A DNA stretch of 20,950 nucleotides. It comes from a virus. The position numbers and the translations under genes were made by a program. Where the stretch lies: the IMG/VR virus record IMGVR_UViG_3300044511_000114, positions 1 through 20,950 of that record; one strand, given 5' to 3'. Shown one piece after another: positions 1 through 20,950 of this stretch. Below the pieces are notes generated by a model. It worked only from the letters and a program-made list of their open reading frames with translations, ran no database searches and was not told the DNA's origin. Each line of letters starts with the position of its first letter. Positions within the stretch are counted from its first letter, which is position 1.

Positions 1-3000
1 TCTTTTTCCCTTCGTAAGAAAACGACATTCCTACATAGTCGAAATGATTGGCCGTAGTGTCAGTTTTGGCTGAATCAACAGCGCCGCCGAGTACCTCGCT
101 AATTACACTGCGAACAAAGTTCTGTATTCCTGGTTGAGAAGACTCACGATGTCCAGCGACGTTAAGTGTTTTGGCTTTGGTCGTATCAAGGAACTCAGTA
201 AGCTGCTTAACCGCTTCAGCGACGTTCTTGGTGCGAATTACTAGAATAGGGCGATGTGCACCTTTGATCTGAGTCGTAGACCCCGGTATCCATCTTCCAG
301 TCTGAGCATAACCAATGGTTTTCGTGGTGCCAACACTCGGTCCCCAGAGAAATGCGACTGTCGCATCTGCATCATCGATGTTTTTTATAGTTCGTGGCAC
401 GTAGTCAGATTCTGCATGCTCAACCAGACCAAACTTGGCGAGCCCTGGATTACTACCTTTATCAGTACGCCACCCTTTAGGTGCGGTTCCACCAGTTTCT
501 ACACCAGCATCCTTGGCACCCCGAAGCGCGCCAAAATCACCACCGGTTTGACCCCCAGAAATAACCTTGGTAACAGTAGTACGGTTTTTGGGCTTGCTAC
601 TTTCTTCCGTCGCCAGTTCAAACAGCGCGCGTGCCTGACTGATTTCTGAAGTTGCATGCTTATCAGTCAGAACATGACCAGCAGCTTTAGCTTTTAGTTC
701 AGCAAAAAGCTCCGGGTTTTCTTTCACCCATTGTCGCCACAGAGCCTTGTACTCTTCGTAAAGCTGCTCACGCGACTTCCCGTTAAGGGGAGGCTTCCTC
801 TTACCCAGGTGCCAATCAGAGCCTTGCGCTCGATACCCCTTTACATCCAGCTGATAGGCTTCTTCAATAGTTCGACCGTCCTGTAACTTGGCTTTCAGCG
901 CAGAGAACCGACTATCCCCTTTTGTAGACACCTCGTAAGAAGGAGTATCAGCGGGAGGGTATCTACGCCAACCAAGAATCGAAGGGGTTGTATCAACCTT
1001 AGCAGGTTTAGCAACCTTATCTGCTACCGATAATTTCCCAAAGGTAGGCCATTTCGATTCCAGAGCAAATCCATGTTGGCCCTTGTTGGCTGCACTTATC
1101 AGCCCTCGTATCCTGCCGTTTATGAAATCAAGATACTTCGGGCTGAGTTTGGCCAATCCAGTCCCCAGGCCATCCGCAGGGAAAACAACCTGCTTGCCAT
1201 CCTGCACGAGCTTGTTCAGTTCATCGAACGCCTTGGCTATGACCTTGCTGTTCCGGTCGAAGTCCACATCCTTGTAAGACTCGTATGGTGACTTCTTCGT
1301 GGGGATACCAAAGGCGTTCGGCTCACCGCGCATCTCAGCGGCTTGGCCTGCTTTCCCCCACCGGGCTTCATTGTCGCCAAAAACGTAGATGACTGAAGGA
1401 TTGCTCTTCAGGTCGTTCCGCGTAATACGCGCCTGGAACGACACTTGCGGAGTAGTGGTGTTGACGTGCGAAGGAAGCGGCTCTTTGACTGCGGACTTAC
1501 CTTCGTCTTTTTTCACCTTCTTCGTTTCAGCTTTATCAGCACCCGGTATGCGCGCTGGCGGGTTAATACGCGCTGGCTGGTTAGAGGGACCGATTGGCGC
1601 TGCTACCGGTTTCGCCAGTTCACCAGCAGCCTCAACATCTGTAAGAGAAGAACTGCCGAACGACTTGGCGAACTCCCGGTTGAGCGACTCAGTTACCCGA
1701 TCTACGTCAGAATCGCTAAAACGCTGTGAAGCCGTTTGATCAACTGCAACCTGCATCGTAGGCACGAACGCCGTGTTCTGCTGCTGGAGATATCCCAGGA
1801 AATTCTTGAACAACAAAGCTGCGACTGTATTCACTCTATTGGCAGCGAGGTACTTTTCCGTCGCCAAGGAAGCGCCAAAAGTCCCAGCCAACTCCCTCAG
1901 CGCATCAGTAAGCTCTTCTGGCAATCCGTGCTCCAAACTGGCCCAGTCAGTTTGAGAAAAACCCTCCTGCTCTCCAATCTTTACTTCAGACAACCTGTCC
2001 AAGAGCAGCCCCAGCATGCCCAGGTTGTCCGCTATATCAGCATCACGAGCCGTTTCTTTTTTGTACGGATTGGCCAAAGCGCTAACTATCAGCTGCAATG
2101 CCTCAAACCGTGTCTTTTCCTTGTCAGTCAGGGGCTTCTTTTTTCCCTTCAACTGCTTGAGCTCATTATTAAGCTTTTTGTAATTCAGAAGATGCCCGAG
2201 ATTCCGTATGCCTGTATGAAGCCTGTGCAGCTTGCCAACGAGCTCAAATTTCTCCTTGGCAGTGCGTATTCTTTTTTCCTTCAAGCGCTCGATGGTCTCT
2301 TCCATGCTCTTGACGATTCCCTCAGCCTCTTTGCGCATCTTCTGGTTTACTCGCGCCACCGAGCTAACAGGGTCACTGCTGAACAGAACATTTGAGTAGT
2401 GCTCAATTCGCTGCGTACGCCCGACCTTCGAGTAGTACACAATTACCGGGTTCTTTTTCAGATACTGGCTGAACGCTTCGACCTGCTCCTTGGAGAACTT
2501 GATTTCAGGTTCGCCTTCGATAGAAAAAAGGCTCGTAATGGCGTCAAACAAAGCATTCTGGATGTCCGGCAAAGAGTGCAGCTTCACGAGCTGACCGTTG
2601 TTGGCTTTGCGAACAGCAAAATTCACCAGACGCGGCATGTTTATTTCATACTCAACCCCACGAGTATCTGTAATCGGAGCGGCATATCTTGGAACCTGAT
2701 AATCCCGCTTGAGGTACTGCAAACGATCTTTGAGACGCTTGGACTTTCCGTGCGACGTATCCTTGGCTAAAAGCTCAAATTGCTGCACCGTGAGACTATC
2801 AAGCTTCGCTTCTGGCTTGGCTGTACGAACCGGCACTTGCAACATCTTGAGGAAGTTCTGAGCCCCATGGGTTCGATACAATTCATAGAGCTGGCCGGAT
2901 ACAGTAGATGCGACTGGGGACTTGCTCCGGTATTCAGTGAGGTAATTCCGAGCAACCAAATCAAACGTGCCATCGTCTACAGGCGCATTGGCAGTTTTCT

Positions 3001-5218
3001 TAACCGCCTCGAACAAACTCATCGGCTCGTAGGTAAACTTGGGGTTCTTGGCCTCGCTCTCAGACACCTTGGTAGCGAAGCCTTTCCCGAAATACGCCTC
3101 GTTCTTCTCTGGTGTGTTTCTCGGGTAGAGAAGCGCTGCCAATTTCGCAGTTGGTCGCGCTTCAGCCAGATCCATGTACGACCGCTGAGTTTCAGAACTG
3201 GTCGTCTTTATCCCAGGCGGTTGCCCAGACTCGTCGGACCCATCATCGTTGGGCTCACCATAATCCTCCTCGGGCGTCTCTGGAGCACCTTCAGTGTCGC
3301 CCGTAGTTTCAGACATCCTCTCGCCCTTGCCGCCAGCGCCGGTAAATGCAGCGTACAGATGGTCGTATGCAGCCTTGATGTCATCTCCAAAATTGTATCG
3401 CCCAGTCTTTTCAAGGTCATTCAACAGAAGAGATATTTGCCCATAATCTTCAGCAGTCAGAAATTCACTTGGCAGCTTGTCAGCTGTAGTATCAGCCTGA
3501 GCATCGAACACACCTTTTCTAAACTCAGCGGGCATACGACCTGCGACATCAGCAGCGATACGTCGCTTCTTCATTGCGATTTCGATCAACGCACTGAAAG
3601 CCTTCATGTCGCCTTTCAATGTCGTCGCGGCTGTATCCTCATCTGCAAAGTCCTTCGCCTCCGTATTCACGAACGGAGCCACAGCGTTGAGCAGCAGATA
3701 ATCAGAGCTGGCCAGCTCATTCGAGTACGCATCGCGCACCGCTGCCAGACTGACGTTCGCCTTTTCTTTGATCCGCGCATCCAGCGCAGCGTTAAACTGA
3801 GGACCACCTTCGCCAGTAACGATGCTACGGGCGATGGCGTTCACAAGCTGCGATCTGTTCGCTGGATTTGGGGTGTCAAAGATAGAGCTGACACTATCCT
3901 TGTCAGAAACAGGCACCAACAGGCTGTTATGGAAAAGCCCCTTCAAGGTTTCTTCCACAACAGACGAATCTGCATCCAGAAGGTTTCGAAGATTGGCTCT
4001 GAACTTGCGCTGTTCAGCCGCATTCTGTTTACCTGTTGAAGGACGACCTGGTGCTTCTGCACCCTCCAACGGCAAACCGAACAGCTCGTGCAGTGCCTTT
4101 CTATTCGGATCGAAAGACTTGCTCTCATCAACCCCCTGCTCCCTGATAAGACCGTACTGCTGGGTCAGAGCGTCCAGCCCTTCATGGTCTTCATCATCCG
4201 CCAGAGTATCAATCAGCTCTGAGTCTTCTGGCGCGAACTGTTTTAACGTGGCTGCTTTGCGATTTATGTCGTAGGAGTTCAGTTCTTCTTCCGCATCTAT
4301 CGTTTCAGCAGCTTCATCGAACTTCCTATACCCGGAAGCAGGCACCAAGGCACCCAAGCTCGACAACGAAGCGCCAGTAAGCCCGCCAACAGCCGCTGAA
4401 TTGAGGATTTCATCTGCGTCTTCCGGGCGCAGCCGGAAGCGGTTTTCATTGACGAGATTGACCGTCGCCTGCTCGATTGCAGCCTGTATGCCCTCAGTAG
4501 TTGCCTCCTGAGTGCCAGAAACAAGCGCGTTGTTGACAACCCGGCGCAACAACGACCTGCCGACTGAAGGAAGTCCCAGTCGTTTGAGAGCGCTGTACAC
4601 AGGAATGACATCGAGGACCGATTCACCAGCACCGGTTACGACGGCCTTTTCAGCAACCTCTTGCTGCGAAATCGGGCGCTCAGACTCCGCCATCAACTGG
4701 TTGACCATAGCGCCAGTGTTCAACGCAGTCGCTGCGCCGTAAGCACCGGCTGCCGTTGCCTGTGTCCGCGACAGTACATTGCCTGCCGCACCAAGCATCG
4801 ACTTCCCAGCGAGCCCAGCGATACCACCAAGAGCGGTGGTGAAGATGTTCGGTAGCTGGTTGCCAAAATTCCACGTCAGCCAATCCATGAAGGCTTCCGG
4901 TGTCTTCGCATCCTTGATATTGGCGACCCGTGGAGGGTTCTGCTGTATCGCTGAGCTAAGGTCGGCGTTACCAGACTCGATCAGCTGTTGTCCTGTCTCA
5001 TCGAAACCAGCCAGAGTAGCCAGTGAACCGGCGAAATTCTTGGCCAACCCTGGCTGCTGCTGTATGCCGGCCCGCAGACCAGCGTCGAACTGAGACGGCT
5101 TTGGAAGACGAACTGGAGCCGAGTTACCCCTGCCGGCAAAAGGAGGTTCAACGCCCGAGGGAAGGAGAGGGCCAAACCCTCGGGACTGAATAATCAGGTC
5201 ATTGAATGGACTTGCCAT
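1..5218 (-). CDS. Giant virion polyvalent/ejection protein with SLOG and other nucleotide-type modules (C-terminus beyond window)
   Basis: An uninterrupted minus-strand frame runs from ATG at 5218 to base 1 with no stop: at least 1739 residues. The start lies 2 bases after the TAA of the 907-residue gene, with no clear Shine-Dalgarno, so translation is probably coupled. Seen in order: residues 110-180 and 275-295, Gly/Ala-rich hydrophobic stretches (e.g. GGIAGLAGKSMLGAAG); about 637-669, an acidic Pro/Gly linker; about 950-1045, a charged coiled coil; about 1203-1252, a Pro/Ala/Lys linker; about 1255-1375, a phage domain with VIYVFGDN, RGEPNAFGIPTKKSP and GLGTGLAKL (I believe DUF7831-like); about 1425-1540, a domain with GDSRFSALKAKLQDGRTIEEAY; about 1548-1705, a circularly permuted YpsA-type SLOG domain (ISGGQTGGD, GGTAPKGWRTDKG, LNVAGHRES). 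The position after two other internal-type proteins and the hydrophobic N-terminus suggest a DNA-ejection protein carrying enzymatic or ligand-binding cargo. That role is inference; the SLOG assignment is by motif memory. Confidence 0.9.
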   Translation of the reverse strand, partial: MASPFNDLIIQSRGFGPLLPSGVEPPFAGRGNSAPVRLPKPSQFDAGLRAGIQQQPGLAKNFAGSLATLAGFDETGQQLIESGNADLSSAIQQNPPRVANIKDAKTPEAFMDWLTWNFGNQLPNIFTTALGGIAGLAGKSMLGAAGNVLSRTQATAAGAYGAATALNTGAMVNQLMAESERPISQQEVAEKAVVTGAGESVLDVIPVYSALKRLGLPSVGRSLLRRVVNNALVSGTQEATTEGIQAAIEQATVNLVNENRFRLRPEDADEILNSAAVGGLTGASLSSLGALVPASGYRKFDEAAETIDAEEELNSYDINRKAATLKQFAPEDSELIDTLADDEDHEGLDALTQQYGLIREQGVDESKSFDPNRKALHELFGLPLEGAEAPGRPSTGKQNAAEQRKFRANLRNLLDADSSVVEETLKGLFHNSLLVPVSDKDSVSSIFDTPNPANRSQLVNAIARSIVTGEGGPQFNAALDARIKEKANVSLAAVRDAYSNELASSDYLLLNAVAPFVNTEAKDFADEDTAATTLKGDMKAFSALIEIAMKKRRIAADVAGRMPAEFRKGVFDAQADTTADKLPSEFLTAEDYGQISLLLNDLEKTGRYNFGDDIKAAYDHLYAAFTGAGGKGERMSETTGDTEGAPETPEEDYGEPNDDGSDESGQPPGIKTTSSETQRSYMDLAEARPTAKLAALLYPRNTPEKNEAYFGKGFATKVSESEAKNPKFTYEPMSLFEAVKKTANAPVDDGTFDLVARNYLTEYRSKSPVASTVSGQLYELYRTHGAQNFLKMLQVPVRTAKPEAKLDSLTVQQFELLAKDTSHGKSKRLKDRLQYLKRDYQVPRYAAPITDTRGVEYEINMPRLVNFAVRKANNGQLVKLHSLPDIQNALFDAITSLFSIEGEPEIKFSKEQVEAFSQYLKKNPVIVYYSKVGRTQRIEHYSNVLFSSDPVSSVARVNQKMRKEAEGIVKSMEETIERLKEKRIRTAKEKFELVGKLHRLHTGIRNLGHLLNYKKLNNELKQLKGKKKPLTDKEKTRFEALQLIVSALANPYKKETARDADIADNLGMLGLLLDRLSEVKIGEQEGFSQTDWASLEHGLPEELTDALRELAGTFGASLATEKYLAANRVNTVAALLFKNFLGYLQQQNTAFVPTMQVAVDQTASQRFSDSDVDRVTESLNREFAKSFGSSSLTDVEAAGELAKPVAAPIGPSNQPARINPPARIPGADKAETKKVKKDEGKSAVKEPLPSHVNTTTPQVSFQARITRNDLKSNPSVIYVFGDNEARWGKAGQAAEMRGEPNAFGIPTKKSPYESYKDVDFDRNSKVIAKAFDELNKLVQDGKQVVFPADGLGTGLAKLSPKYLDFINGRIRGLISAANKGQHGFALESKWPTFGKLSVADKVAKPAKVDTTPSILGWRRYPPADTPSYEVSTKGDSRFSALKAKLQDGRTIEEAYQLDVKGYRAQGSDWHLGKRKPPLNGKSREQLYEEYKALWRQWVKENPELFAELKAKAAGHVLTDKHATSEISQARALFELATEESSKPKNRTTVTKVISGGQTGGDFGALRGAKDAGVETGGTAPKGWRTDKGSNPGLAKFGLVEHAESDYVPRTIKNIDDADATVAFLWGPSVGTTKTIGYAQTGRWIPGSTTQIKGAHRPILVIRTKNVAEAVKQLTEFLDTTKAKTLNVAGHRESSQPGIQNFVRSVISEVLGGAVDSAKTDTTANHFDYVGMSFSYEGKK

Positions 5219-5220
5219 GC

Positions 5221-7944
5221 TTATTTATTAAACGTGTTCGCGAATCGAGCTAGACGGTCCATAGTCATATAATCATCCACAGTGCTGGGGTTACCTGCAC
5301 GCACTGCGTCAGCTGCTGTCTTATCCAGCAAAAGATTCACTTTTGCTGGATCAATGGCATTCGCCGCTGCTTGTCTAACTTGTTGTATATAAGCATTAAG
5401 ATCTTGAGTGTTAACATTGCTGCCATCACCTATGGCTGTATCTCCATAATACAAATCCCCAGTTTGAGGGTCAGTTCGCAGCGCACCCAATAGGGTAGGC
5501 ATATCATTGGGGAAGTCCGTATCGAAGACACTAAATTTTCCTAGTTCGGAATAAAACCCTTCGTTGGACAATCTGTTCAGCAAAGCTTGCATGTAGTCAC
5601 CAGATTGCTGTGCCTTTGGGTGCTCCAGAACAAACTGTCGCTGTGCCGATTCCCTGTCACTTTCGGGCAATTCATTGATGGCAGCTACCTTCTCAACCAA
5701 ATCAGGGCGAAGAAGACCCTCAAGCCCCTGCACATCGGTCATATTTATCGGCATGTTGGACTTAGCGCCTGTACCCCCGGATTGTGCTCCTTGGAGCCCA
5801 GTCAACAGCTGAAGAGTGGCGTTAAGCCGGGACTGCGTGTCCATCGACTTGCCTACATGCGGGAACAGCTCCAGCGCAGTTTGCGTGAAGTTGGCCCCAC
5901 GCTCGTCTGCAACCTGCATGGCATATCGAAGCTCATCCGGCGACAGTTCGCGCATAATCGAATCGCTCGCGTCACTACCGCTGAAATCAACAGCAGTATT
6001 GCTTAGAGCGGGCATGCTGCTGATGTCTGCCGGGGTATAGGAGGCCATATTGGTGGCGTCTGTACCCAACGGGACATCAGACAAGGACAGCTCACCAAAC
6101 GCTCCGCGACCAGCAAGCACCTGTCGATTCCCAGAAAGATTAACTATCCCCTCGCCATTTCGGTCCACAAACTCTTCGAGGCTACTGGAGGGGAACTGAG
6201 CCTCCTGTTCCGGGCCGATATTGATTGAATCAAACCTCGGTAAAATATCCGTAGGCACCCCCGCTTTATTGAGCTGATCTGTAACTAGATCGCGCAGCCT
6301 GAACTCTGGCGCGGACGCCCCGAGAACCTCTCCTTCTGCCGCAGCAGGTTGATTACCGGCAGGTTTTGCTTCCAGACTCTTTGGCAGCTTACCCGAGCTA
6401 CCCTTGTACCCTGACGCTGCGAGACTTTCCTGAAGTGCACGGAGCCCACTTCGCCCGTCAGGCATCGTCATGCGCTTCAATTCTTGTATGGCATCCTGGT
6501 CACCCTGAACTGCCTTTAACGACAAAGCATCGAACTTATCCAAGTTACGCCCAACGCTCGCCCCAGGAACAAGAAAGTCATTTACCGCATCTACAGTAGA
6601 AGCAACTAAGTTTCGACCAAAATCAGTGTCCATGAACTTGTTGGTAGCTAAATTCAAAGCAAAAAGCGGAAGACCGGCAGGTCCAGCAAACGCTGTGGTT
6701 GCTAAACCAGGTGCTGTGAGGCCAGTCAAAAGCTTCTGCTGATCCAGAGTAAGACCCCGCATATCAGCCTGTCGTTGCAGCTCTTCTTCACCAGCTTCAT
6801 TGGGGAATATCAAAGGGCGAGCCTGATAGGCCGCATCAAGAAGCGAAAGGGGCTTGGCAAATAGGTTAGCAAGCCTAAGCCCTTGGCCAACAAACTTCCC
6901 AGCACTGGATGCAAATCCTCCTTTGGCAGCAGCATCAGCCGTTTTAGCAACGTCGTCAGCACCACCAGCTGCGTATTCATTCATCCGCGCAGTAGCTTGT
7001 TCGACTTTATCCAGCCCTTCATGCCCTGCTTTGCTAAAAAGCCGTCCGAGAGCCTCTCGTAATCCTCCGAAGGTTCCCTTCACCCTCTCAAGAAATGGGG
7101 GCCTCTTGGTACCTGAAAAGGAGCGAGCTTCATCGGCATTGGCAGCTACATCTGCCGCAGGCGCAGCTGACGCAGACGCAGCTGATTTCGGCGCACCCAT
7201 GTAAGCATTCTTGGCACTACGGAAGAAGTCATCCACTGTCCTACGAAGCCCCCCGCCAGTCTTAGGGGCTTCAACGGGCTGCTTGGGCGCTAAAGAATCC
7301 CTATAAGCGTTGCTATCCCTCCGTATGTTATTCCTGACAGTCTGCATCCGTTCAGTGTGCCCTATCTCTTCGCTGATCTTGGCAACGTCACCAGTACGCA
7401 GGGCGTTGAAAAACGAGCTACCGCTCGTAGGACGCTTACCCTTCAAAGAGTCGTAATACGTAGCAGCATCATGAATCTTGTTGGCAAGCGCGCTATTGCC
7501 ACTCTTATGCGCTGCTCGATACGCCTTCTGAACAGACTTAAATTCAGCATCGCTCAGTCCACTGAGCTGCGTAGCCTTGGCAACACCTTCATGAATTGCC
7601 CCCGTAGCGCGGTTGGCAGCTACCTCAGCAGCAAACGCATTGCGTCTGAGAAGCGGGTTTTCTTTGAATAACTTCTCAGTAGTAGCAGCCGCGTCATCAC
7701 TAGCCTGTTGGGCGAACTTACCAGCATCGTCATAAACCGACTTTATAGCGTCTTGTAAATTATTGTAGTTACCAGTAATACCTTTCCCAAGTCGCCTTTT
7801 AAGGTTTTTTATCGCATCGCTTATCTTCTTCGGAGTCCCTTCTGGAACATCAACGTCACCAGTAAGTTTGAACGTACCGTCTTTTAGGGTCTCTAAGCCC
7901 AGAGAAACCCGTGGCCCATTATCACCAAACTGAATCGTAGCCAT
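5221..7944 (-). CDS. Large internal virion (ejection-type) protein, 907 aa
   Basis: Not recognised as a named family. ATG at 7944 has a good ribosome site (GGAGG at 7953-7949) and lies 11 bases after the previous stop. Visible features: a lysine-rich N-terminal segment; a long Ala/Lys/Asp-rich helical region (residues about 20-390) including a low-complexity Ala/Ser stretch near 248-275; a Gly/Ala/Pro hydrophobic segment at about 405-440 (TGLTAPGLATTAFAGPAGLP) that could touch or cross a membrane; then an acidic, polar C-terminal half ending in RLARFANTFNK. There are no cysteines to suggest secretion and no catalytic motif I can point to. It sits between a helical 329-residue protein and the giant polyvalent protein, the usual place and size for the inner-core proteins that short-tailed phages eject to extend the tail through the envelope (as T7 gp15/gp16 or P22 gp16/gp20 do). 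The role is inferred from position and composition only. Confidence 0.8.
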   Translation of the reverse strand: MATIQFGDNGPRVSLGLETLKDGTFKLTGDVDVPEGTPKKISDAIKNLKRRLGKGITGNYNNLQDAIKSVYDDAGKFAQQASDDAAATTEKLFKENPLLRRNAFAAEVAANRATGAIHEGVAKATQLSGLSDAEFKSVQKAYRAAHKSGNSALANKIHDAATYYDSLKGKRPTSGSSFFNALRTGDVAKISEEIGHTERMQTVRNNIRRDSNAYRDSLAPKQPVEAPKTGGGLRRTVDDFFRSAKNAYMGAPKSAASASAAPAADVAANADEARSFSGTKRPPFLERVKGTFGGLREALGRLFSKAGHEGLDKVEQATARMNEYAAGGADDVAKTADAAAKGGFASSAGKFVGQGLRLANLFAKPLSLLDAAYQARPLIFPNEAGEEELQRQADMRGLTLDQQKLLTGLTAPGLATTAFAGPAGLPLFALNLATNKFMDTDFGRNLVASTVDAVNDFLVPGASVGRNLDKFDALSLKAVQGDQDAIQELKRMTMPDGRSGLRALQESLAASGYKGSSGKLPKSLEAKPAGNQPAAAEGEVLGASAPEFRLRDLVTDQLNKAGVPTDILPRFDSINIGPEQEAQFPSSSLEEFVDRNGEGIVNLSGNRQVLAGRGAFGELSLSDVPLGTDATNMASYTPADISSMPALSNTAVDFSGSDASDSIMRELSPDELRYAMQVADERGANFTQTALELFPHVGKSMDTQSRLNATLQLLTGLQGAQSGGTGAKSNMPINMTDVQGLEGLLRPDLVEKVAAINELPESDRESAQRQFVLEHPKAQQSGDYMQALLNRLSNEGFYSELGKFSVFDTDFPNDMPTLLGALRTDPQTGDLYYGDTAIGDGSNVNTQDLNAYIQQVRQAAANAIDPAKVNLLLDKTAADAVRAGNPSTVDDYMTMDRLARFANTFNK

Positions 7945-10859: not shown

Positions 10860-11693
10860 CTACACAAGTAGAGTGAACTTGAACATTGAAGTGTTGAGCG
10901 GAGTAGAAGTTGCAACTCCGCTAGGGCAAGTACGACGTATCCAGACCGGTATATACGCATCTGGAACAAACGTAGCATTGGCCAACGTGCTTGGCACACC
11001 AGCAACTACGGAAAGAGGTATCGCAGCGGTTTCGTTCATCGGTGATGAGAAAGCAACGCCGGCTGGAACGCTGTACTGGTTCGTAGACAGAGAAGTCGCA
11101 CTGCCCGTAGTAGCTGGCCATGTAGCAACATTTGTATCCAATCCGATGGCCAGTGTATCCGCGCCCGGAGTATCCGCGTCTATCCATAGAGCAGCGTAGG
11201 TGCCAGAATCAACAGTATTCGTATTTTTTAGATACACACAGCGGTATGAAGTTTCTCCAGCAAGCGTTCTGGTCTTATCCAGGTCATCCCACAGGTTATT
11301 CGCCACATTGGTAACGACCCCAGAACCAGATACATCGGACGTAGGTAAATTGACAGCAAATACCGAAATTACTGCGTATCCAGCCTGCGAACCCGCTGAA
11401 CCAGAGCGAAGCAGGTAATCCCCATTACCAGACAAAACCACCGAATTCGCAGCAGCGTCGGGCGTCGGAGGAGTCCAGGTCAATGTGCTAGTAGCCGCGA
11501 CGAACGAGAAAGTCCCAGTGCCAAGGGTGAACCCAACCGCATATAGCAACGTAACCCCGGTAAGCGCTGCTGGAATAGTGATGTTCTGCGCTGACAGCAG
11601 CGCCCCGGTATTGATGCCTCCACCAAGACTAGCAACCCCACCAAGCGTCGTTGAAGACTTGTAAAACAGCATCTGGGTAATTTGGACAGCCAT
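10860..11693 (-). CDS. Beta-rich virion structural protein, 277 aa
   Basis: ATG at 11693 overlaps the TGA of the 701-residue gene (ATGA); a GGGAG sequence lies about 8 bases upstream. The protein has very few charged residues and is rich in Thr, Ser, Ala, Gly and Val, typical of all-beta phage surface or tail proteins. The stretch around residues 137-180 (TLAGETSYRCVYLKNTNTVD, then YAALWIDADTPGADTLAIGL) resembles a beta-sandwich family of phage structural proteins that carry 'YR-x-YLKN' followed by a 'W-x-DTPG-D-x-x-IGL' strand pair. C-terminus PVWIRRTCPSG to KFTLLV is compact and beta-like. A role in the tail tip, fibre base or capsid surface cannot be separated from sequence alone. Confidence 0.75.
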   Translation of the reverse strand: MAVQITQMLFYKSSTTLGGVASLGGGINTGALLSAQNITIPAALTGVTLLYAVGFTLGTGTFSFVAATSTLTWTPPTPDAAANSVVLSGNGDYLLRSGSAGSQAGYAVISVFAVNLPTSDVSGSGVVTNVANNLWDDLDKTRTLAGETSYRCVYLKNTNTVDSGTYAALWIDADTPGADTLAIGLDTNVATWPATTGSATSLSTNQYSVPAGVAFSSPMNETAAIPLSVVAGVPSTLANATFVPDAYIPVWIRRTCPSGVATSTPLNTSMFKFTLLV

Positions 11694-13798
11694 CAGGGCA
11701 CTCCCACAAAAATGTTGGACGATGCAGTCTTGAGCGGATACCCGTGGTCAGACGGGCCAATTTCACTAGATGCCCCATATAAACTGGTACTTAATTCGTA
11801 ATGCTTATCATCAAAAGCATCACGAGACACATATAAATACTGAGCCACATTAGGATCAATCATGTTAATCCAATGGGCAAGCGGTTCTTTAGGGGGAATA
11901 AATTCAAAATTAACACCACCCGATGCAAATACTTTTACCACTTTATCGGTTGTACGATCATCACTAGAACTGGACGCAGTATTTGGAGCTAGTTTGATAT
12001 TAGAAATAAGTTCAACACTTGTATCATCATAGCCTCCGCATATGTCGTGTTCTTTCTCAGGCCAAGGGCCATCGCTTTTTATATACCGATAAGTACCTCC
12101 ATCATACGAAGTCATGTACACAGTAGGCCCTCCCCCCGACGTATACGATATATTGCAATCACTGCTACTTCTATTAACAAACTTGAATGACATAACATGA
12201 CAGTTAGTAGGCTCTTCAAGATAACAGCAAACATCACCGTTATGCTCAAGAGTATAGACGTCACCAGTAACTACTTCCTCTTTATAGTATGTATCAGTAG
12301 ACGCTATATATACTGATCGAAAAGACGCTAAATATACAACTTGTCTATCGTTTGCAGGAACCAATAAACAGGCGCCTGTGCTCGCTGTTGCCCCGTAAAA
12401 CGTAGAATTTGTTTGCCCACTGATATATAACTCGGTAAATGTAGCGCCTAGCGGAAACGAACTGGACGTTCCAGAAGAAACGTATACAGCTTTTTTACTG
12501 TTCTCTTTGAAACTATAAGACACTACAGACGTCACAGTAGTTGTGAATTCTCCAAAATGAGTTTCATATGAAGCTGCGCCTTTTACAACAAAAGATGGAC
12601 CATCTGAGCCCGAATACCCACCTGGATAATAACAAGTGCGCCCGCTTTTAGATAAGCACGGGCAATCAGGAAAACCACCAATACGATCTGCTCCAGGACT
12701 AAACGTAAAATAGCAAATTACTTCATTGTCCCCGTCAAAAAACGCATATACCGGAGCGTAGCAAGGAACCCACCGCTGATAAGGATCGTAGTCCAATGAA
12801 AACGAGTAAAGCGTGCCATTAGGAAGCGCTGGATATTTCATGTGGTACTGAGGAGGAGCCAACATGGGGTCTTCCTCGCGCATCATGAATTCGGCAGAAG
12901 CAGGAACGTTATTGCCTTCAGTTATTTTAATTTCAAGTAGAGCACCATAAACAAAGCGGCCTTTGAATTTCTGCGCAACATTTATGGCTCTGTCTCCTTT
13001 CGTATTAAATGCCCACCCGCAATGAGAAAAGAATGGAAGGTAGTCCTTAAAAATATGCTGGGCTACGTAATCTCCCGACAATAAAACAATCAGCCCGTCT
13101 CTGGTCCTTCTTGGACGAATAGTGTTTTTCGGAACATAACCGAGGGTATTCCCAGAGTCATTCCCCGGTCCTGCGCACATATTCATTCTGTACGCAAAGA
13201 CACCAAGCATGCCAATTTCAATAATCCATTTACTCCCATCGTTCGCTGTATAAACGCCATGAGTAAGGTAGAACAAAGGAGCATAGGACACAGAATCGAC
13301 ATTGGTGGCAGTCAGGATTTGAACGACCTTTCGCATCTCTCCTGAGTATTGGCTACCCCGATAATGCGTAGCAACGTTCTCAACACCAGCAAGCTGTAAC
13401 GCAGGGCTCGGATCAGCGTTCAGTTCTTTACAATCAAACCAATCCCGAGGAATGTTCTGCGCCGTTGCGTAGCGCTTCGAAGGATATACTGATCGAAAAG
13501 CCCGCGTGCCATCAGGAAGAGTGACTACGGGTTGTAGAGGAAACTTAGGATTCAGTATTCCGCTGACATACGGAACACACTCATTCGTATCGATATAAAT
13601 AAATGTATCGTCTCCTGAGATGCGAACGCGAACAGATATGTTGGGGTTCTCTGCTGTACTGAACTCAAAGTATCGCGTCTCATATCTACTGACACGCCGC
13701 ATGATGCGCGCCTGCTCCAGCGCAAAAGGCAAAAACTGACCAGCGTTTTTTCCTAGAAGAAAACGATGAACTCTTGTTTTCGATTCAAGCAGGGTCAT
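11693..13798 (-). CDS. Cysteine-rich virion-locus protein of unknown function, 701 aa
   Basis: Not recognised. Start ATG at 13798 overlaps the end of the 76-residue gene (14 bases) and follows a GAAGATGA region with only a weak ribosome site. It has about 15 cysteines, including a CPC motif and a cluster near residues 386-398 (PDCPCLSKSGRTCYYPGGY) and a CC pair; neighbours have almost none. It is rich in Tyr, Phe, Ser and Gly and is probably beta-rich, with a Pro/Tyr-rich central part (YDPYQRWVPCYAPVYAFFDG). FRSVY occurs twice, each encoded by the same 17-base sequence. The gene is noticeably AT-richer than its flanks and uses more ATA and TTA-type codons, which suggests a module exchanged with another phage. 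By place in the operon it may be a tail-tip, adhesin or fibre protein, but no known adhesin motif is visible. Confidence 0.75.
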   Translation of the reverse strand: MTLLESKTRVHRFLLGKNAGQFLPFALEQARIMRRVSRYETRYFEFSTAENPNISVRVRISGDDTFIYIDTNECVPYVSGILNPKFPLQPVVTLPDGTRAFRSVYPSKRYATAQNIPRDWFDCKELNADPSPALQLAGVENVATHYRGSQYSGEMRKVVQILTATNVDSVSYAPLFYLTHGVYTANDGSKWIIEIGMLGVFAYRMNMCAGPGNDSGNTLGYVPKNTIRPRRTRDGLIVLLSGDYVAQHIFKDYLPFFSHCGWAFNTKGDRAINVAQKFKGRFVYGALLEIKITEGNNVPASAEFMMREEDPMLAPPQYHMKYPALPNGTLYSFSLDYDPYQRWVPCYAPVYAFFDGDNEVICYFTFSPGADRIGGFPDCPCLSKSGRTCYYPGGYSGSDGPSFVVKGAASYETHFGEFTTTVTSVVSYSFKENSKKAVYVSSGTSSSFPLGATFTELYISGQTNSTFYGATASTGACLLVPANDRQVVYLASFRSVYIASTDTYYKEEVVTGDVYTLEHNGDVCCYLEEPTNCHVMSFKFVNRSSSDCNISYTSGGGPTVYMTSYDGGTYRYIKSDGPWPEKEHDICGGYDDTSVELISNIKLAPNTASSSSDDRTTDKVVKVFASGGVNFEFIPPKEPLAHWINMIDPNVAQYLYVSRDAFDDKHYELSTSLYGASSEIGPSDHGYPLKTASSNIFVGVP
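12308..13500. repeat. 17-base direct repeat inside the 701-residue gene
   Basis: The identical 17-base word atatactgatcgaaaag occurs at 12308-12324 and at 13484-13500. In minus-strand frame both encode FRSVY, at about residues 492-496 and 100-104. The amino acids around them differ. It may mark an internal duplication or a shared structural motif, or be chance; no other copy was noticed in the window. Confidence 0.7.
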
Positions 13799-14206: not shown

Positions 14207-14694
14207 CAAGTGCTCGTCATGGTGATCTCAGCAGCAATGCGCAGAATATCGCCGTTATCCACGACCTTGGCTGTACTGAACCGAGCCGCTGAAACCAAAG
14301 TCCCAGTTATGGCGCTCTTCACCGAATCGCTACTGAGGAACCCACCATAGATGGTCTTGGTCGCATTGAACGTAAAGACCGCCTTATTGGCTACGTTGGT
14401 AATCACGCCCCCACTGGCAGGCGCTTCGACGTACGTCTGTCGAACCGATTCACTGTAAGCAGTGCATTCAAACGCAGAACCGGGGAACGTCGCCGCAGTG
14501 TCACTAGCAACAGGCGTGTAGTTGCCCTCAAAGACGCCCACGTACCACGTCGTTACCTGTGTACCTGCCGCGAAAACAGTATTGAGGATGTGGTTTAACC
14601 CCTCAGTCGGGACAATGTTGCTGCACGTCTCGACAGAAAGGACTTCACCATTACGAATATGCTCAACGGTATAAACAGCGCCAATTGTATTCAT
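14206..14694 (-). CDS. Beta-rich phage structural protein, 162 aa
   Basis: ATG at 14694 overlaps the TGA of the 408-residue gene (ATGA). The motif NIVPTEGLNHILNTVFAAGT followed by TWYVGVFEGNYTPVASDTAA is characteristic of a widespread phage structural family in which a short helix (N-x-[VI]-[PT]-x-[EG]-GLN-x-[LI]-L) precedes a 'WY-[VL]-G-[LVI]-x-[EG]' strand and an N/YTP-x-A-x-D-T loop. The rest is Thr/Ala/Ser-rich beta sequence ending DILRIAAEITMTST. Such proteins lie next to neck, tail-fibre or capsid-decoration genes, and their exact place in the virion is generally unknown. I regard the family match as good and any finer role as open. Confidence 0.8.
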   Translation of the reverse strand: MNTIGAVYTVEHIRNGEVLSVETCSNIVPTEGLNHILNTVFAAGTQVTTWYVGVFEGNYTPVASDTAATFPGSAFECTAYSESVRQTYVEAPASGGVITNVANKAVFTFNATKTIYGGFLSSDSVKSAITGTLVSAARFSTAKVVDNGDILRIAAEITMTST

Positions 14695-15917
14695 GATGCC
14701 CTCACGATTTCAGCTTCGTAGTAATCGGAAGCAGCCACGGGGTTGGCTGAAGAAGTGGACACATACGCCCCGATGATCTGCTGGAGCCCATTCTCTTCGC
14801 GCACCATGGACGCACCTGATGCCTGTGGAAAAGAAAAGACCAATTTCTGGTCAGTCACATTTTTCGCTTCACCGTTTTCACCAGCCATGACAAGCCCCCG
14901 AGTGGAAAACCAGAAATTGCCAAAAGGAGTGACCCTCGCAGTCCCTCTGATCATTGGGTATTCAAGGACAACGGACACCGTTATCTTGTCCACATCCAGC
15001 CCGCTCAACCAGTAGGTTTTGCTGTCAGTAGACACGTACATGCCAGAGGTCACTGCAAACAGATCAGTAATCGGTTCTTCAAAAGAGAAGTAATTGCGTA
15101 CTTTGCTCCGGTTCGGCGTGAACAACTCAGTGAAGTACAGAGAGTTGCCAGTGCCGATCCACAACCGACCAGCGAAGGATTCGAGGCACGAGCCAACCGG
15201 CGGCGGAATGGAGTTCAGCGACTGAATTTCATGCCCAAGGGTCGTGGATGCAGTGATCGTAACGGATACAGTCCCCAGCGAGACCTCGCTGTACATGTAA
15301 TAAGTCTCGCTGTTCGTTGAAGTCACGTAGATGCGGACGCGGTTCACATCGGCAATTGACGTGGTTGGCAGAGTCACCACGATGCCACCTGTCGTCACGA
15401 GCGTAATGGCCCCCGGTATGGATCCGCTCGACTCTTCGCCCGTCGCCGTGAGGAACGTCAAAGCAACGTGGTAGCGCCCGGGTGGCAGCGCTCCTACACC
15501 CGCAGCGACACCGTCAATGAGCGGAATCGGGAGCCCCCACGCACGAACCTGGCCATTCAGCAGCTTCCCGTTCAGCGTCCCGTTGGTGTAGTAGATGACC
15601 CCATCGAGCTTGGTGTATGCAACAGGAGCAGTGGAGAACCCGGTAGCCAGCGCAGTTTCAGTCAGAACGCCGAGCGCTGAAACGTTGATCTTCATCAGAC
15701 TGCCAGCCTTCACCGCAAGCAGAAACGCACCAGCGTTGTACAGGCTGTGGTACGCACCAGCCAGCTTCGAAGTGTACCCCTTTCGCCGGCGCACGGTGCC
15801 TTCTGCTGTGATGTCCACGTTCACTGCGTTTCGCAGCGTCCTGGAAGACAGCTCATGGTCCTCGTGGATGTTGTCCATCCCGTAGGGCCAAGGACCATTG
15901 GAGGCCAGCTTATCCAT
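14691..15917 (-). CDS. Tail-complex protein, candidate tail nozzle/stabilising protein, 408 aa
   Basis: ATG at 15917 overlaps the upstream TGA as TGATG. The N-terminus (GPWPYGMDNIHEDHEL followed by NAVNVDITAEGTVRRRKGY) is a pattern known from podovirus neck/tail proteins: a 'G-x-x-N' start, an 'L-R-x-A-x-N-V-D' strand and an 'R-R-x-G-Y' turn opening a set of short beta blades. The repeating strand units ('SLYNAGAFLLAVKAGSLMKI', 'VIYYTNG', 'LWIGTGNSLYFTE', 'GMYVSTDSKTYWLSGL', 'NFWFSTRGLVMAGENG') look like propeller blades of the type that build the distal tail nozzle of short-tailed phages. A middle part (about residues 140-230) reads as an Ig-like insert (PPGRYHVALTFLTATGEESS). It directly follows the adaptor gene, as expected for a tail-tube or nozzle subunit. 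Blade reading is my inference; a fold prediction would decide. Confidence 0.75.
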   Translation of the reverse strand: MDKLASNGPWPYGMDNIHEDHELSSRTLRNAVNVDITAEGTVRRRKGYTSKLAGAYHSLYNAGAFLLAVKAGSLMKINVSALGVLTETALATGFSTAPVAYTKLDGVIYYTNGTLNGKLLNGQVRAWGLPIPLIDGVAAGVGALPPGRYHVALTFLTATGEESSGSIPGAITLVTTGGIVVTLPTTSIADVNRVRIYVTSTNSETYYMYSEVSLGTVSVTITASTTLGHEIQSLNSIPPPVGSCLESFAGRLWIGTGNSLYFTELFTPNRSKVRNYFSFEEPITDLFAVTSGMYVSTDSKTYWLSGLDVDKITVSVVLEYPMIRGTARVTPFGNFWFSTRGLVMAGENGEAKNVTDQKLVFSFPQASGASMVREENGLQQIIGAYVSTSSANPVAASDYYEAEIVRAS

Positions 15918-17516: not shown

Positions 17517-18629
17517 TTAGATGGCGTGGTCAACACACATTACGCCAAAGTCCTCGTCCGTATTGGTTACAGCCGAACGGAACCTCGGGCGCAGCATGCC
17601 AACGATCTTACCGACAGAGATACCCGGCTGATTGTCGTAGTCGAACTCCTTCTCAACCCAGCGGGCTGGGCCAATGTCGGCGAAACCGAGCGCCTGCGCG
17701 CCACACAGCAGGGTGCGCGAGCCGTCAACCGTACCACTGCCCCACTTGCTGCTGGTAACGCCAGAAGCGCCAAGCGTGTTGTAAACATACCGGTGCTCAT
17801 AGATCGCCAGGCCATCGACGTAGATGACATCAGCGCCCTTGAACAACGGGTTGTTCGCATCACGCGGCATCGCGTGCCGCCATGCCTGCAAGAAGTCAGG
17901 GTTCATCTTCAGCTTGGCAATGGCCTTCGGGTGCATGAACACGTTGTACATCTCGGTGCCGTTCTCACCACGCAGCGGCTTGATGTACTGCTGCTTGGCG
18001 TGCGCCTTCATGTCAACGAGCATCTGCCACGTCGGCGTATCAGCGGCGACAAGAGAAGTGTTGGACGTGTTGGAAAAGAGGCCGTTGGTCGCATCCCAGA
18101 CAAGATACCGATTACCGGACGGAGCGCTTACATCAGCAGCGAACTCCAGATTGGTAAGGTCGGATCCGGTACGAGCGACGCCGTTGTTCTTCATGTTGAA
18201 CGAAACGCCTGACAAGGCGAGCAGCGCTAACTGGTCAATGCGGTCGGACATCCAGAAGCCGAGAACATCACGAGAGTTCTCACGGAAGTCCACGACCGAC
18301 TTCTGCTCCGCCATGCGGCCTTCGTGCCGGTTGGCATGACGCAGCTGGTCGATGCGAATGACCTGATCGTAGGACTTCATCGCCTCTTCGTTGCCTTCCA
18401 GCTGGCGATCACCTGCGACGCCATCGCCTTCGAGGTCAGCTACGAGAGTGATTACCGCGCGCGCACCCTTCTCGGACTTCTTGAGATCGGTGATGCGCTG
18501 AATCATTGCGTTGTTCCCGGTACCCAGGAAACGGTTGATGAACATCGATTCACGCGCCGCTTTCCACACGTCGCGTTGCCAAACAGTAAGCTGTTCAGCT
18601 GTGAGCAGAGCAAAGTTGGTATTGGACAT
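17517..18629 (-). CDS. Major capsid protein, phage N4 gp56 / DUF4043-like, 370 aa
   Basis: Forms the icosahedral head shell. Residues about 10-145 carry the family hallmark: an N-terminal helix with VWKAARESMFINRFLGTGNN, then IQRITDLKKSEKGARAVITL, the invariant DLEGDGVAGDRQLEGNEEAM block, and RIDQLRHANRHEGRMAEQKS leading into DFRENSRDVLGFWMSDRIDQ. That block (G-D-G-V-x-G-D-x-x-L-E-G-N-E-E) and the following 'D-Q-L-R-H-A' are what I use to identify the N4 gp56/DUF4043 capsid type, an HK97-fold protein that is usually 350-400 residues; 370 fits. The rest holds a typical spine helix (YNVFMHPKAIAKLKMNPDFL) and C-terminal domain with GISVGKIVGMLRPRFRS. Start ATG 18629 has GGAG 6 bases upstream. 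Own strong promoter and a two-hairpin leader precede it. Highly confident. Confidence 0.95.
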   Translation of the reverse strand: MSNTNFALLTAEQLTVWQRDVWKAARESMFINRFLGTGNNAMIQRITDLKKSEKGARAVITLVADLEGDGVAGDRQLEGNEEAMKSYDQVIRIDQLRHANRHEGRMAEQKSVVDFRENSRDVLGFWMSDRIDQLALLALSGVSFNMKNNGVARTGSDLTNLEFAADVSAPSGNRYLVWDATNGLFSNTSNTSLVAADTPTWQMLVDMKAHAKQQYIKPLRGENGTEMYNVFMHPKAIAKLKMNPDFLQAWRHAMPRDANNPLFKGADVIYVDGLAIYEHRYVYNTLGASGVTSSKWGSGTVDGSRTLLCGAQALGFADIGPARWVEKEFDYDNQPGISVGKIVGMLRPRFRSAVTNTDEDFGVMCVDHAI

Positions 18630-18997: not shown

Positions 18998-19905
18998 CAC
19001 ACGAGGTCACCACGCAGACGGGCGAGCGTGGACGCCGGCAGCGCCGCAAACTCCTCCTCCGTCAGCTTGGCCGGATCGATGTCGCGCTTCATCCCCGCCG
19101 CGTTGCCGTCCATGCCCGCACTCTTGAGAGACGGCGCTGCCCGCTTGGCTGCGTCCAGGTTCTTCGCCACGTCGAGCTTCGGTTTGCCACCTCTGGCCTG
19201 ACCAGCCCCCGCGTCATCCGCTTCGGAGACCCGGGCGGCATGGGCGTACTTGAACGCCTTCATCATGGCCGTCGATGCAGCCGTGCCTTTGGCCACTGCC
19301 GCTTCGTACAGGTCCATCACCTCGTCCACGAACTCCTTGTCGTAGGACTCATCGTCCGGGTTCACGAACGGGTACTTCTCTTCGAGCGCCGTAATCACCG
19401 AGTCCAGCCGCACCTGCTCCACCGCGATGCGGGCCGTCTCCTGCGCCGAGTCCTGCACGGCGTTGGTCATGAACGCGCGCTCGAACCGGCGCTGCTCCTT
19501 GAGCAGCTTGATCATGGCGTCCGTGTCGCCGTCCTTCTCGGCCTCGGCGATCTTCTTGTCGTAGGCGACGATGGCCTCCGCCAGCTTCTGCGCGTTGGTG
19601 GGCTTCTGCGCGTTCTGTTCGTCGAGCTTGGCCTCCAGCTCCTGGCGCTTCTGCCGCTCCTCGTTCAGCATGCGCGACTTGGCGTCGAGCCGCGACTTCG
19701 GAATCATCGGCTCCTTGTCTTTGCCCCCCTCGCCGTCATCGGCGTCCTTGGCATCTTCAGTGCCCTTGGCATCTTCAGCGCTTTTGGCATCTTCAGCGCC
19801 CTTGGCATCGGCATCCTCAGCGCCTTTGGCGTCCTTGGTGTCCTCGGCCTTGTCATCGTTCACCTTCTCGTCCTCGAACAGATTCTCCAGCGTATCTTCA
19901 GCCAT
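18997..19905 (-). CDS. Scaffold-like capsid assembly protein, 302 aa
   Basis: Scaffold proteins fill the procapsid, guide capsid subunits and leave before DNA is packed. Supporting features: it lies between portal and capsid, the usual scaffold place; it is highly acidic and almost purely helical. Residues 1-65 are a disordered acidic arm with tandem 6-residue repeats (AKGAED, AKSAED, AKGTED). Residues about 70-150 form a coiled coil (RMLNEERQKRQELEAKLDEQ, later EAEKDGDTDAMIKLLKEQRR). A globular helical part follows (EEKYPFVNPDDESYDKEFVD) and the end, LTEEEFAALPASTLARLRGD, is a motif I know from scaffold-like proteins of related phages. ATG at 19905 overlaps the portal end by 8 bases and has GAGGTG 7 bases upstream. 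No protease domain visible. Role by inference from position and form. Confidence 0.85.
   Translation of the reverse strand: MAEDTLENLFEDEKVNDDKAEDTKDAKGAEDADAKGAEDAKSAEDAKGTEDAKDADDGEGGKDKEPMIPKSRLDAKSRMLNEERQKRQELEAKLDEQNAQKPTNAQKLAEAIVAYDKKIAEAEKDGDTDAMIKLLKEQRRFERAFMTNAVQDSAQETARIAVEQVRLDSVITALEEKYPFVNPDDESYDKEFVDEVMDLYEAAVAKGTAASTAMMKAFKYAHAARVSEADDAGAGQARGGKPKLDVAKNLDAAKRAAPSLKSAGMDGNAAGMKRDIDPAKLTEEEFAALPASTLARLRGDLV
19747..19848. repeat. 18-base tandem repeat in the scaffold gene
   Basis: About five imperfect copies of an 18-base unit (plus strand form CTTGGCATCTTCAGCGCC) run in frame, the fourth with a 6-base insertion and the fifth more diverged. They code for the acidic repeat KGAEDA. 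This is slippage-prone coding DNA, and the repeat number probably varies among relatives. It is not a CRISPR: there are no spacers. Confidence 0.8.
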
Positions 19906-20950
19906 TTGTCTTCACCTCGTTTTGGGGGGGTTTGGTTCTCGCCTCCATGACAGCCTTGACGCGCTCCAGCTTCATCTTGGCCTGCATTTCTTCACGCTTT
20001 ATCGCAATGTTGGCTATCATTTCTTCGCGTTTCAGCTTGTTGTTCTCCTCCATCTCCATGCGACGCAGCCTGGCATCCGACAGCTTCTCGGCGGCCCTCA
20101 GCTGCATCTCCTGAGCCTGCATCTCCGCTGCCTTCGCCGCCGCGCCGGCACCATCGGCGTCGCCCGCCGCTTCGGCCTGCGCCTTGGCGAGCGAGAGCGC
20201 AGCGTCGGCCTTGATCTTCATGATCTCGGCCTCCTTCTCCTGCAACTCCAGCTGCTTCAGCTTGATGCCGAGTTCCCTCAGCGCCTGCGCCTCCGGCGAG
20301 TCCTGCATCGACTTGATGATCTCGTGCTTGCGGTGCAGATGGCTGTGTTCGAGGATGAACTCATCGGGGATCGGTATGCCGACCTCGGTGCGCAGCCGCA
20401 CCGCCTCGTCGAACACCTTGTCCTCGAACGTATCGCGACTCGGCACGTTCACCACCACGACCGCGTATTCACCGAGCGTCAGGTCGTTGATGATGCGCCC
20501 GGTCGCCTCGTCCACCTGGTTGACCTCCAGCTGCTGGCTCTGCCGTCCGGTCTCGCTGTTGCCGAAAATGTGGAACATGCGCTCGCCCGTGTAGAACTGC
20601 TGCACGAGGTCGAGCACCCGCTCGGCGAGCAGACGACGGGTGTAGGTCAGATTCTGGAACGCCTTCACCAGATTGACGTGCCCAGCCTGCTGCTTGTACT
20701 TGATGGCCTTGGCCGCCACGTCGGCACGGTCGAACCCGCGCTGCGAGTCGCTGATGCCGAACAACTCCTTCATGAACTCATCGGCCTTGTAACTGAGCCG
20801 GTCGATGCCGGTCGGCACCTGATTGGGCTGAATCTTCTCCAGCGGCAGCGTGCCCTGTTTGCGCACCAGCACGAGCCCGGTCTCCGCGCCCCTGGCCTCC
20901 AAGTCCTCCTCGTCCATGTTGATGAGCTGCCCGGCCTCCATCTGCCAGCC
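19898..20950 (-). CDS. Portal protein, C-terminal part (start beyond window)
   Basis: The dodecameric portal ring is the DNA entry and exit gate of the head. The frame is open to the right edge (GGC TGG CAG precede the first in-window ATG at 20941), so the true start lies outside. Visible: a crown/wing part with IDRLSYKADEFMKELFGISD followed by QRGFDRADVAAKAIKYKQQA, then FQNLTYTRRLLAERVLDLVQ and QFYTGERMFHIFG, all typical of podovirus portals (P22/N4-type): a portal helix with 'G-[IV]-[ST]-D-x-x-x-G', a tunnel segment and the 'L-x-x-x-x-R-x-x-x-x-I/L-x-Q-x-[FY]-[YT]-x-x-R' signature. From about 20270 to 19930 comes a long Lys/Glu/Met-rich coiled coil (about 110 residues), which forms the barrel in P22-like portals. 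It overlaps the scaffold gene by 8 bases. Confidence 0.9.
   Translation of the reverse strand, partial: GWQMEAGQLINMDEEDLEARGAETGLVLVRKQGTLPLEKIQPNQVPTGIDRLSYKADEFMKELFGISDSQRGFDRADVAAKAIKYKQQAGHVNLVKAFQNLTYTRRLLAERVLDLVQQFYTGERMFHIFGNSETGRQSQQLEVNQVDEATGRIINDLTLGEYAVVVVNVPSRDTFEDKVFDEAVRLRTEVGIPIPDEFILEHSHLHRKHEIIKSMQDSPEAQALRELGIKLKQLELQEKEAEIMKIKADAALSLAKAQAEAAGDADGAGAAAKAAEMQAQEMQLRAAEKLSDARLRRMEMEENNKLKREEMIANIAIKREEMQAKMKLERVKAVMEARTKPPQNEVKTNG

Follow-up and report, generated by a model that had tools for sequence, protein, structure and literature searches.

A giant ejection-type gene of a KPP25-like podovirus carrying DUF7831, phrog_9995 and SLOG modules as putative ADP-ribose-related cargo

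The window, meaning the whole stretch of DNA analyzed here, is an entire IMG/VR record of 20,950 bases. Its genes lie on one strand in the order portal, scaffold-like protein, major capsid protein, small structural genes, head closure protein Hc3, further genes, a 907-aa protein, and finally a giant gene whose ATG is only 2 bases past the end of the 907-aa gene upstream. An earlier note on this DNA had described a stop-free frame of 1739 codons still open at the window edge, and this was confirmed. The frame runs on the minus strand and exits the record at base 2, so that the gene is incomplete. Given the base composition, stops should occur about once in 25 codons, and the chance of a random open frame of 1739 codons is about 1e-31. 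The features of the window are as follows.

2..5218, minus strand: giant gene, ATG at 5218, 1739 codons seen, open at the window edge
92..565, minus strand: circularly permuted YpsA (cpYpsA) SLOG domain (PF12694), residues 1552-1709, Pfam E 1.5e-26
602..946, minus strand: phrog_9995, residues 1425-1539, E 4e-42
1076..1450, minus strand: DUF7831 (PF25176), residues 1257-1381, Pfam E 1e-34
1499..4228, minus strand: middle region, residues 331-1240, no recognized domain, acidic low-complexity stretch at about 601-700
4229..5125, minus strand: N-block, ejection/virion structural region, residues ~32-330, phrog_6958, common to the phiA008 and KPP25 giants
5221..7944, minus strand: 907-aa protein directly upstream of the giant; in the gene order it takes the place of KPP25 ORF001 (structural protein, 809 aa)
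14691..15917, minus strand: head closure Hc3, phrog_8040 E 1.5e-55, 26% identity to KPP25
17517..18629, minus strand: major capsid protein, phrog_334 E 4.5e-87, 57% identity to KPP25
19898..20941, minus strand: portal protein, C-terminal part, running off the right edge, phrog_156 E 5.7e-33, 42% identity to KPP25

Pfam and PHROG profile searches gave no significant match for the 907-aa protein, nor for a 701-aa protein within the structural cluster (11693-13798). PADLOC matched no defense-protein model in the window. The same virus is also represented by another IMG/VR contig (L221, 1-13622), which is 99.99% identical over 13,465 bases (~13.5 kb). It stops at window base 7486 and hence does not extend the giant gene.

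By capsid, the closest cultured relatives are the KPP25-like Pseudomonas podoviruses, at 57% identity, and the portal, Hc3, and several small structural genes occur in the same order in the window and in KPP25. Giants of about 2000 to 2250 aa sit at the same gene position in KPP25, phiA008, and the uncultured MW202615. The KPP25 giant, ORF088 (Kochitakasuvirus; phrog_30152/phrog_6958), resembles that of the window in position and N-block, as its phage does in capsid, portal, and Hc3, and its depositors labeled it a "structural protein," some of its neighbors staying "hypothetical." The two giants differ in that the KPP25 protein has no Pfam cargo domain over the 1825 residues scanned, whereas the window giant has three modules. 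They differ also in a rear block, the C-block, which is present in KPP25 but is not visible in the window, whose contig ends inside the gene. In KPP25 itself (L236, NC_024123), the giant apparently starts near base 1270 on the minus strand (~221-1270), in frame with the annotated start at 550, as profile positions 1-350 align with bases 1270-221. The annotated KPP25 giant therefore probably lacks its first ~240 residues.

The virion structural family phrog_6958 matches residues 32-306 of the window giant at E 9e-12 (E 2e-15 in a six-frame search), and relaxed blastp aligns the N-block with the giants of phiA008 (E 2e-6) and KPP25 (E 5e-4). Together with the gene's place in the ejection-protein position, this upholds the earlier description of an ejection-type, structural front. 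That description had also called the front membrane-active and Gly/Ala-rich. Residues 1-200 are indeed 24 to 31% Gly/Ala, but the membrane-active part is weakly supported, the front having one borderline hydrophobic stretch at residues 274-292. It took PHROG profiles and relaxed blastp to reveal the shared blocks; blastp of the giant front against the loci that bear modules, at E 1e-4, and tblastn of residues 1-1240 against annotated phages returned no match. Domain and motif scans of the visible part revealed no zincin metallopeptidase, LPD, or ART domain, and the window protein gave no match to RNA polymerase.

Three modules were said to occupy the last third of the open frame, and they do, filling the final 28% of its visible part. 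The description of all three as nucleotide-type fits the SLOG domain but does not carry over to phrog_9995, which matched no solved fold, or beyond a suggestive macrodomain likeness to DUF7831. SLOG is the best-assigned of the three. It scores 93 bits against a Pfam cut-off of 26 and covers profile positions 1-144 of 145, a SLOG profile built from 41 sequences retrieves the solved structure 3IMK at E 1e-39, and the columns invariant across those 41 sequences are kept in the window. Judged by these profile matches, the SLOG identity of module 3 is firm. The label "putative molybdenum carrier," under which 3IMK of the SLOG family formerly went, is treated here as a legacy one.

The other two modules were modeled with AlphaFold2 from alignments built from loci found here, and both models are confident, with pLDDT values of 94.6 for phrog_9995 and 93.2 for DUF7831. 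The checks by profile and structure prediction called for in the earlier note gave confident models for both of these and, by profile, a solved relative for SLOG; phrog_9995 found nothing in the PDB at E<=0.001. The confident match of phrog_9995 was to its own family alone, with weak DUF4326 fold matches next, and the residues invariant across 33 of its sequences are kept in the window. Its classification as DUF4326 was ruled out by hhalign (probability 0.7%). In phiKZ (L010), a phrog_9995-matching frame of about 121 codons lies at 2977-3342 (gene 082.1), and the annotated CDS corresponds to the last 38 only.

The DUF7831 model had no significant match among solved structures. TARG1 (2lgr) ranked third by E-value (probability 0.69, E 0.14), and the macrodomain of Mycobacterium tuberculosis DarG (5m3i) aligned at TM 0.51 (E 0.61), a likeness to macrodomains that is suggestive but weak. 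Membership in Pfam Macro (PF01661) at the sequence level was unsupported (hhalign probability 9.6% and 0.2%), in a comparison with two very shallow alignments (5 and 7 sequences) representing MacroD-like proteins and one other Macro group only. The residues invariant across 76 DUF7831 sequences are kept in the window, and a T1307-K1308 pair and D1349-G1350 are conserved. The roles of TARG1 K84 and DarG K80 have been described (PMC9967889), and by analogy we propose Lys1308 as their counterpart and a candidate catalytic residue.

Scans of IMG/VR with the module alignments yielded 47 phrog_9995 loci and at least 80 loci each for SLOG and DUF7831, of which the best 80 each were taken. Frames of at least 1000 aa held 22 of 84 DUF7831, 11 of 47 phrog_9995, and 19 of 82 SLOG occurrences (best 80 loci for SLOG and DUF7831), fractions that come from loci picked by similarity to the window and are not population estimates. 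Among the matches listed, no open frame besides that of the window contained all three modules, and a single-sequence search of IMG/VR with the module region gave no close relatives. When 16 giants were scanned as a set, DUF7831 was found in 11, SLOG in 8, and NADAR in 2. DUF7831 and NADAR share one open frame in four records, with NADAR above the Pfam cut-off in one. In a viral protein of 368 aa (L052, 5644-6747), DUF4326 and phrog_9995 are fused to a C-terminal segment that is SLOG-like by eye.

Elsewhere the modules are usually small stand-alone genes in nonstructural regions. A module gene adjoins a DNA ligase gene and a SLOG gene in vB_PpS_SYP, and one lies near the RNA polymerase genes in N4-like phages. 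Most DUF7831 genes in the bacterial genomes examined are likewise small and stand alone. The 55 proteins near bacterial DUF7831 included 7 SSB, 3 YAcAr SLOG, 3 DprA/LDcluster4-type SLOG, and 2 DUF4326 proteins, counts in which three of the 55 were included for prior SLOG resemblance and several loci are from Acidobacteria closely related to one another, representing few independent events. Several of these related acidobacterial genomes (L266, L259, L261, L265, L277) have a chromosomal DUF7831 gene near SSB and a weak SLOG-like gene. The fusions to and neighborhoods with SLOG, NADAR, and DUF4326 in relatives support the claimed connection between the modules and ADP-ribose/NAD chemistry, and at least one of the three is tied to that chemistry.

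Five IMG/VR giants with modules share the C-block, of about 350 aa, with the giants of KPP25 and phiA008. They are G003 (4036 aa), G004 (3255 aa), G008 (~3070 aa), G010 (2939 aa), and G014 (1983 aa). The phiA008 giant has both an N-block (phrog_6958, 56-344) and a C-block (650-1005), with about 1200 residues between. Among 41 other giant-bearing records searched, the phrog_334 capsid was found only in those of G003, G004, G008, and G010, and in these four the giant is on the capsid strand, downstream of the capsid, with its modules upstream of the C-block in converted coordinates. G003 alone of the four gave an N-block profile match, and its layout is N-block at ~401-553, SLOG at 1008-1179, DUF7831 at 1221-1344, and C-block at ~3635-3992. 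G014, which comes from a 15.5-kb fragment, has its modules after the shared block, and a layout with cargo between two blocks is therefore not universal. Since the modules precede the C-block in four full-length relatives, the window probably ends mid-protein. By this comparison the rear of its giant is probably missing from the contig and the cargo would lie in the middle of the protein; the modules, previously regarded as C-terminal, need not be so.

The cargo itself is shuffled among these giants. DUF7831 is present in all five sister giants and SLOG in two of the five, and in G003 their order, SLOG-DUF7831, is the reverse of that in the window. The SLOG region of G003 is 48% identical to that of the window over 228 aa despite capsids that are only 26% identical, a sign of module exchange rather than of simple inheritance. 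The 3255-aa giant of G004 (L246, 1384-11148, minus strand) carries an AlkB-like 2OG-Fe(II) oxygenase, DUF7831, and NADAR in a row. HExxH motifs occur in the giants of G003, G004, phiA008, and MW202615. An SNase-like nuclease domain lies in the N-terminal part of the phiA008 giant (E 8e-7), with a weak match in that of G003 (L238, L242).

The recurrence of these fusions bears on what the modules are for. They might be structural passengers whose function has been lost, and DUF7831 and phrog_9995 do lack a known activity; we consider this very improbable, because invariant residues are kept in all three window modules and the modules are swapped rather than decayed. They might instead act late or in metabolism, for example in NAD salvage or RNA repair, and never be injected, the structural fusion merely providing late expression. 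That the modules elsewhere are usually small nonstructural genes, as in vB_PpS_SYP and the N4-like phages, agrees with such a role, but at least five related phages, differing in cargo, have modules fused within an ejection-type protein, and we regard this explanation as improbable. The recurrent fusions, with modules swapped and reordered, suggest rather that related phages inject anti-defense tools along with their DNA.

Several known systems resemble the window giant in part. Polyvalent proteins (PMC5512222) are also very large, combine several unrelated domains, are encoded among virion genes, and are predicted to be injected. The window giant likewise has several unrelated domains in one polypeptide and is encoded among virion genes. 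The main text of that paper mentions neither SLOG nor NADAR, and the metallopeptidase and LPD domains of polyvalent proteins have no counterpart in the visible part of the window giant, whereas HExxH motifs occur in several sister giants. Phage SLOG, Macro, NADAR, and DUF4326 proteins are predicted to counter ADP-ribose-derived signals, and some are predicted to be virion-packaged (PMC9503650). A counter-defense role for such domains is plausible and already a published prediction. As presented in the passages on these networks in PMC9503650 and PMC7824862, overlapping families are combined and proposed to act against ADP-ribose-based defense. In those passages the proteins are typically stand-alone, whereas the window modules form the cargo of an ejection-type podovirus giant. 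Neither DUF7831 nor phrog_9995 is named there. The N4-like virion RNA polymerase (phage DEV, 3398 aa; PMC10925440) is a precedent for a virion-associated protein of such size, with an enzymatic cargo that differs from that of the window giant. Neither the domains nor the concept of injected polyvalent proteins is new; such cargo in a KPP25-type ejection giant, recurring in shuffled form, was not found in the passages considered from the polyvalent-protein and phage SLOG-network literature.

In light of these findings, we favor, at somewhat better than even confidence, the view that the window giant is a polyvalent ejection protein from a KPP25-like podovirus, with an ADP-ribose cargo that is injected and blunts an ADP-ribose-based defense. 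The conserved front block and, by analogy, a rear block beyond the contig would make the giant part of the ejected internal proteins of the virion, and the space between the blocks would carry swappable cargo, here DUF7831, phrog_9995, and the cpYpsA SLOG domain. Most likely the giant would enter the cell together with the DNA. There DUF7831 may strip ADP-ribose from a target, a nucleic acid being more likely than a protein, and SLOG may bind or cleave an NAD- or ADP-ribose-derived nucleotide, so that an ADP-ribose-based defense would be blunted ahead of phage gene expression. Counting against this view, the macrodomain likeness of DUF7831 falls short of significance, phrog_9995 lacks an assigned chemistry, the G014 giant departs from the layout, PADLOC matched nothing, and no DarT, Thoeris, or similar target was linked to the window phage.

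The same injected chassis could have a soluble target, with SLOG, together with DUF7831, binding or degrading the cyclic ADP-ribose-type signals of Thoeris-like defenses. SLOG domains of the YpsA-like clade have been proposed to counter such signals in phages (PMC9503650), and in the window SLOG is the module with the best assignment. However, SLOG is not the constant element of the sister giants, as DUF7831 is, and the pairing of DUF7831 with NADAR and an AlkB-like oxygenase in G004 is a better fit to nucleic-acid repair; we judge a soluble target rather unlikely. Removal of ADP-ribose from guanine and thymidine in DNA has been demonstrated for NADAR and the DarG macrodomain (PMC11543638). 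The NADAR and AlkB partners make removal of ADP-ribose from nucleic acid by an injected giant seem somewhat likelier than removal of a soluble signal.

If the giant is ejected, ADP-ribose-processing enzymes would arrive with the genome, before expression, in time for defenses that act by DNA ADP-ribosylation and NAD signals. DUF7831 and phrog_9995, two widespread phage families of no known function, become concrete, testable candidates, and the related giants with swapped cargo form a natural series for comparison. For the KPP25-like podoviruses as a group we offer, tentatively and at less than even confidence, the picture of the giant as a cargo bay. Its conserved ends may deliver swappable enzymes (DUF7831, SLOG, NADAR, AlkB-like) that would clear the incoming genome of ADP-ribose or alkyl marks, or quench signals derived from NAD, ahead of any phage gene expression.
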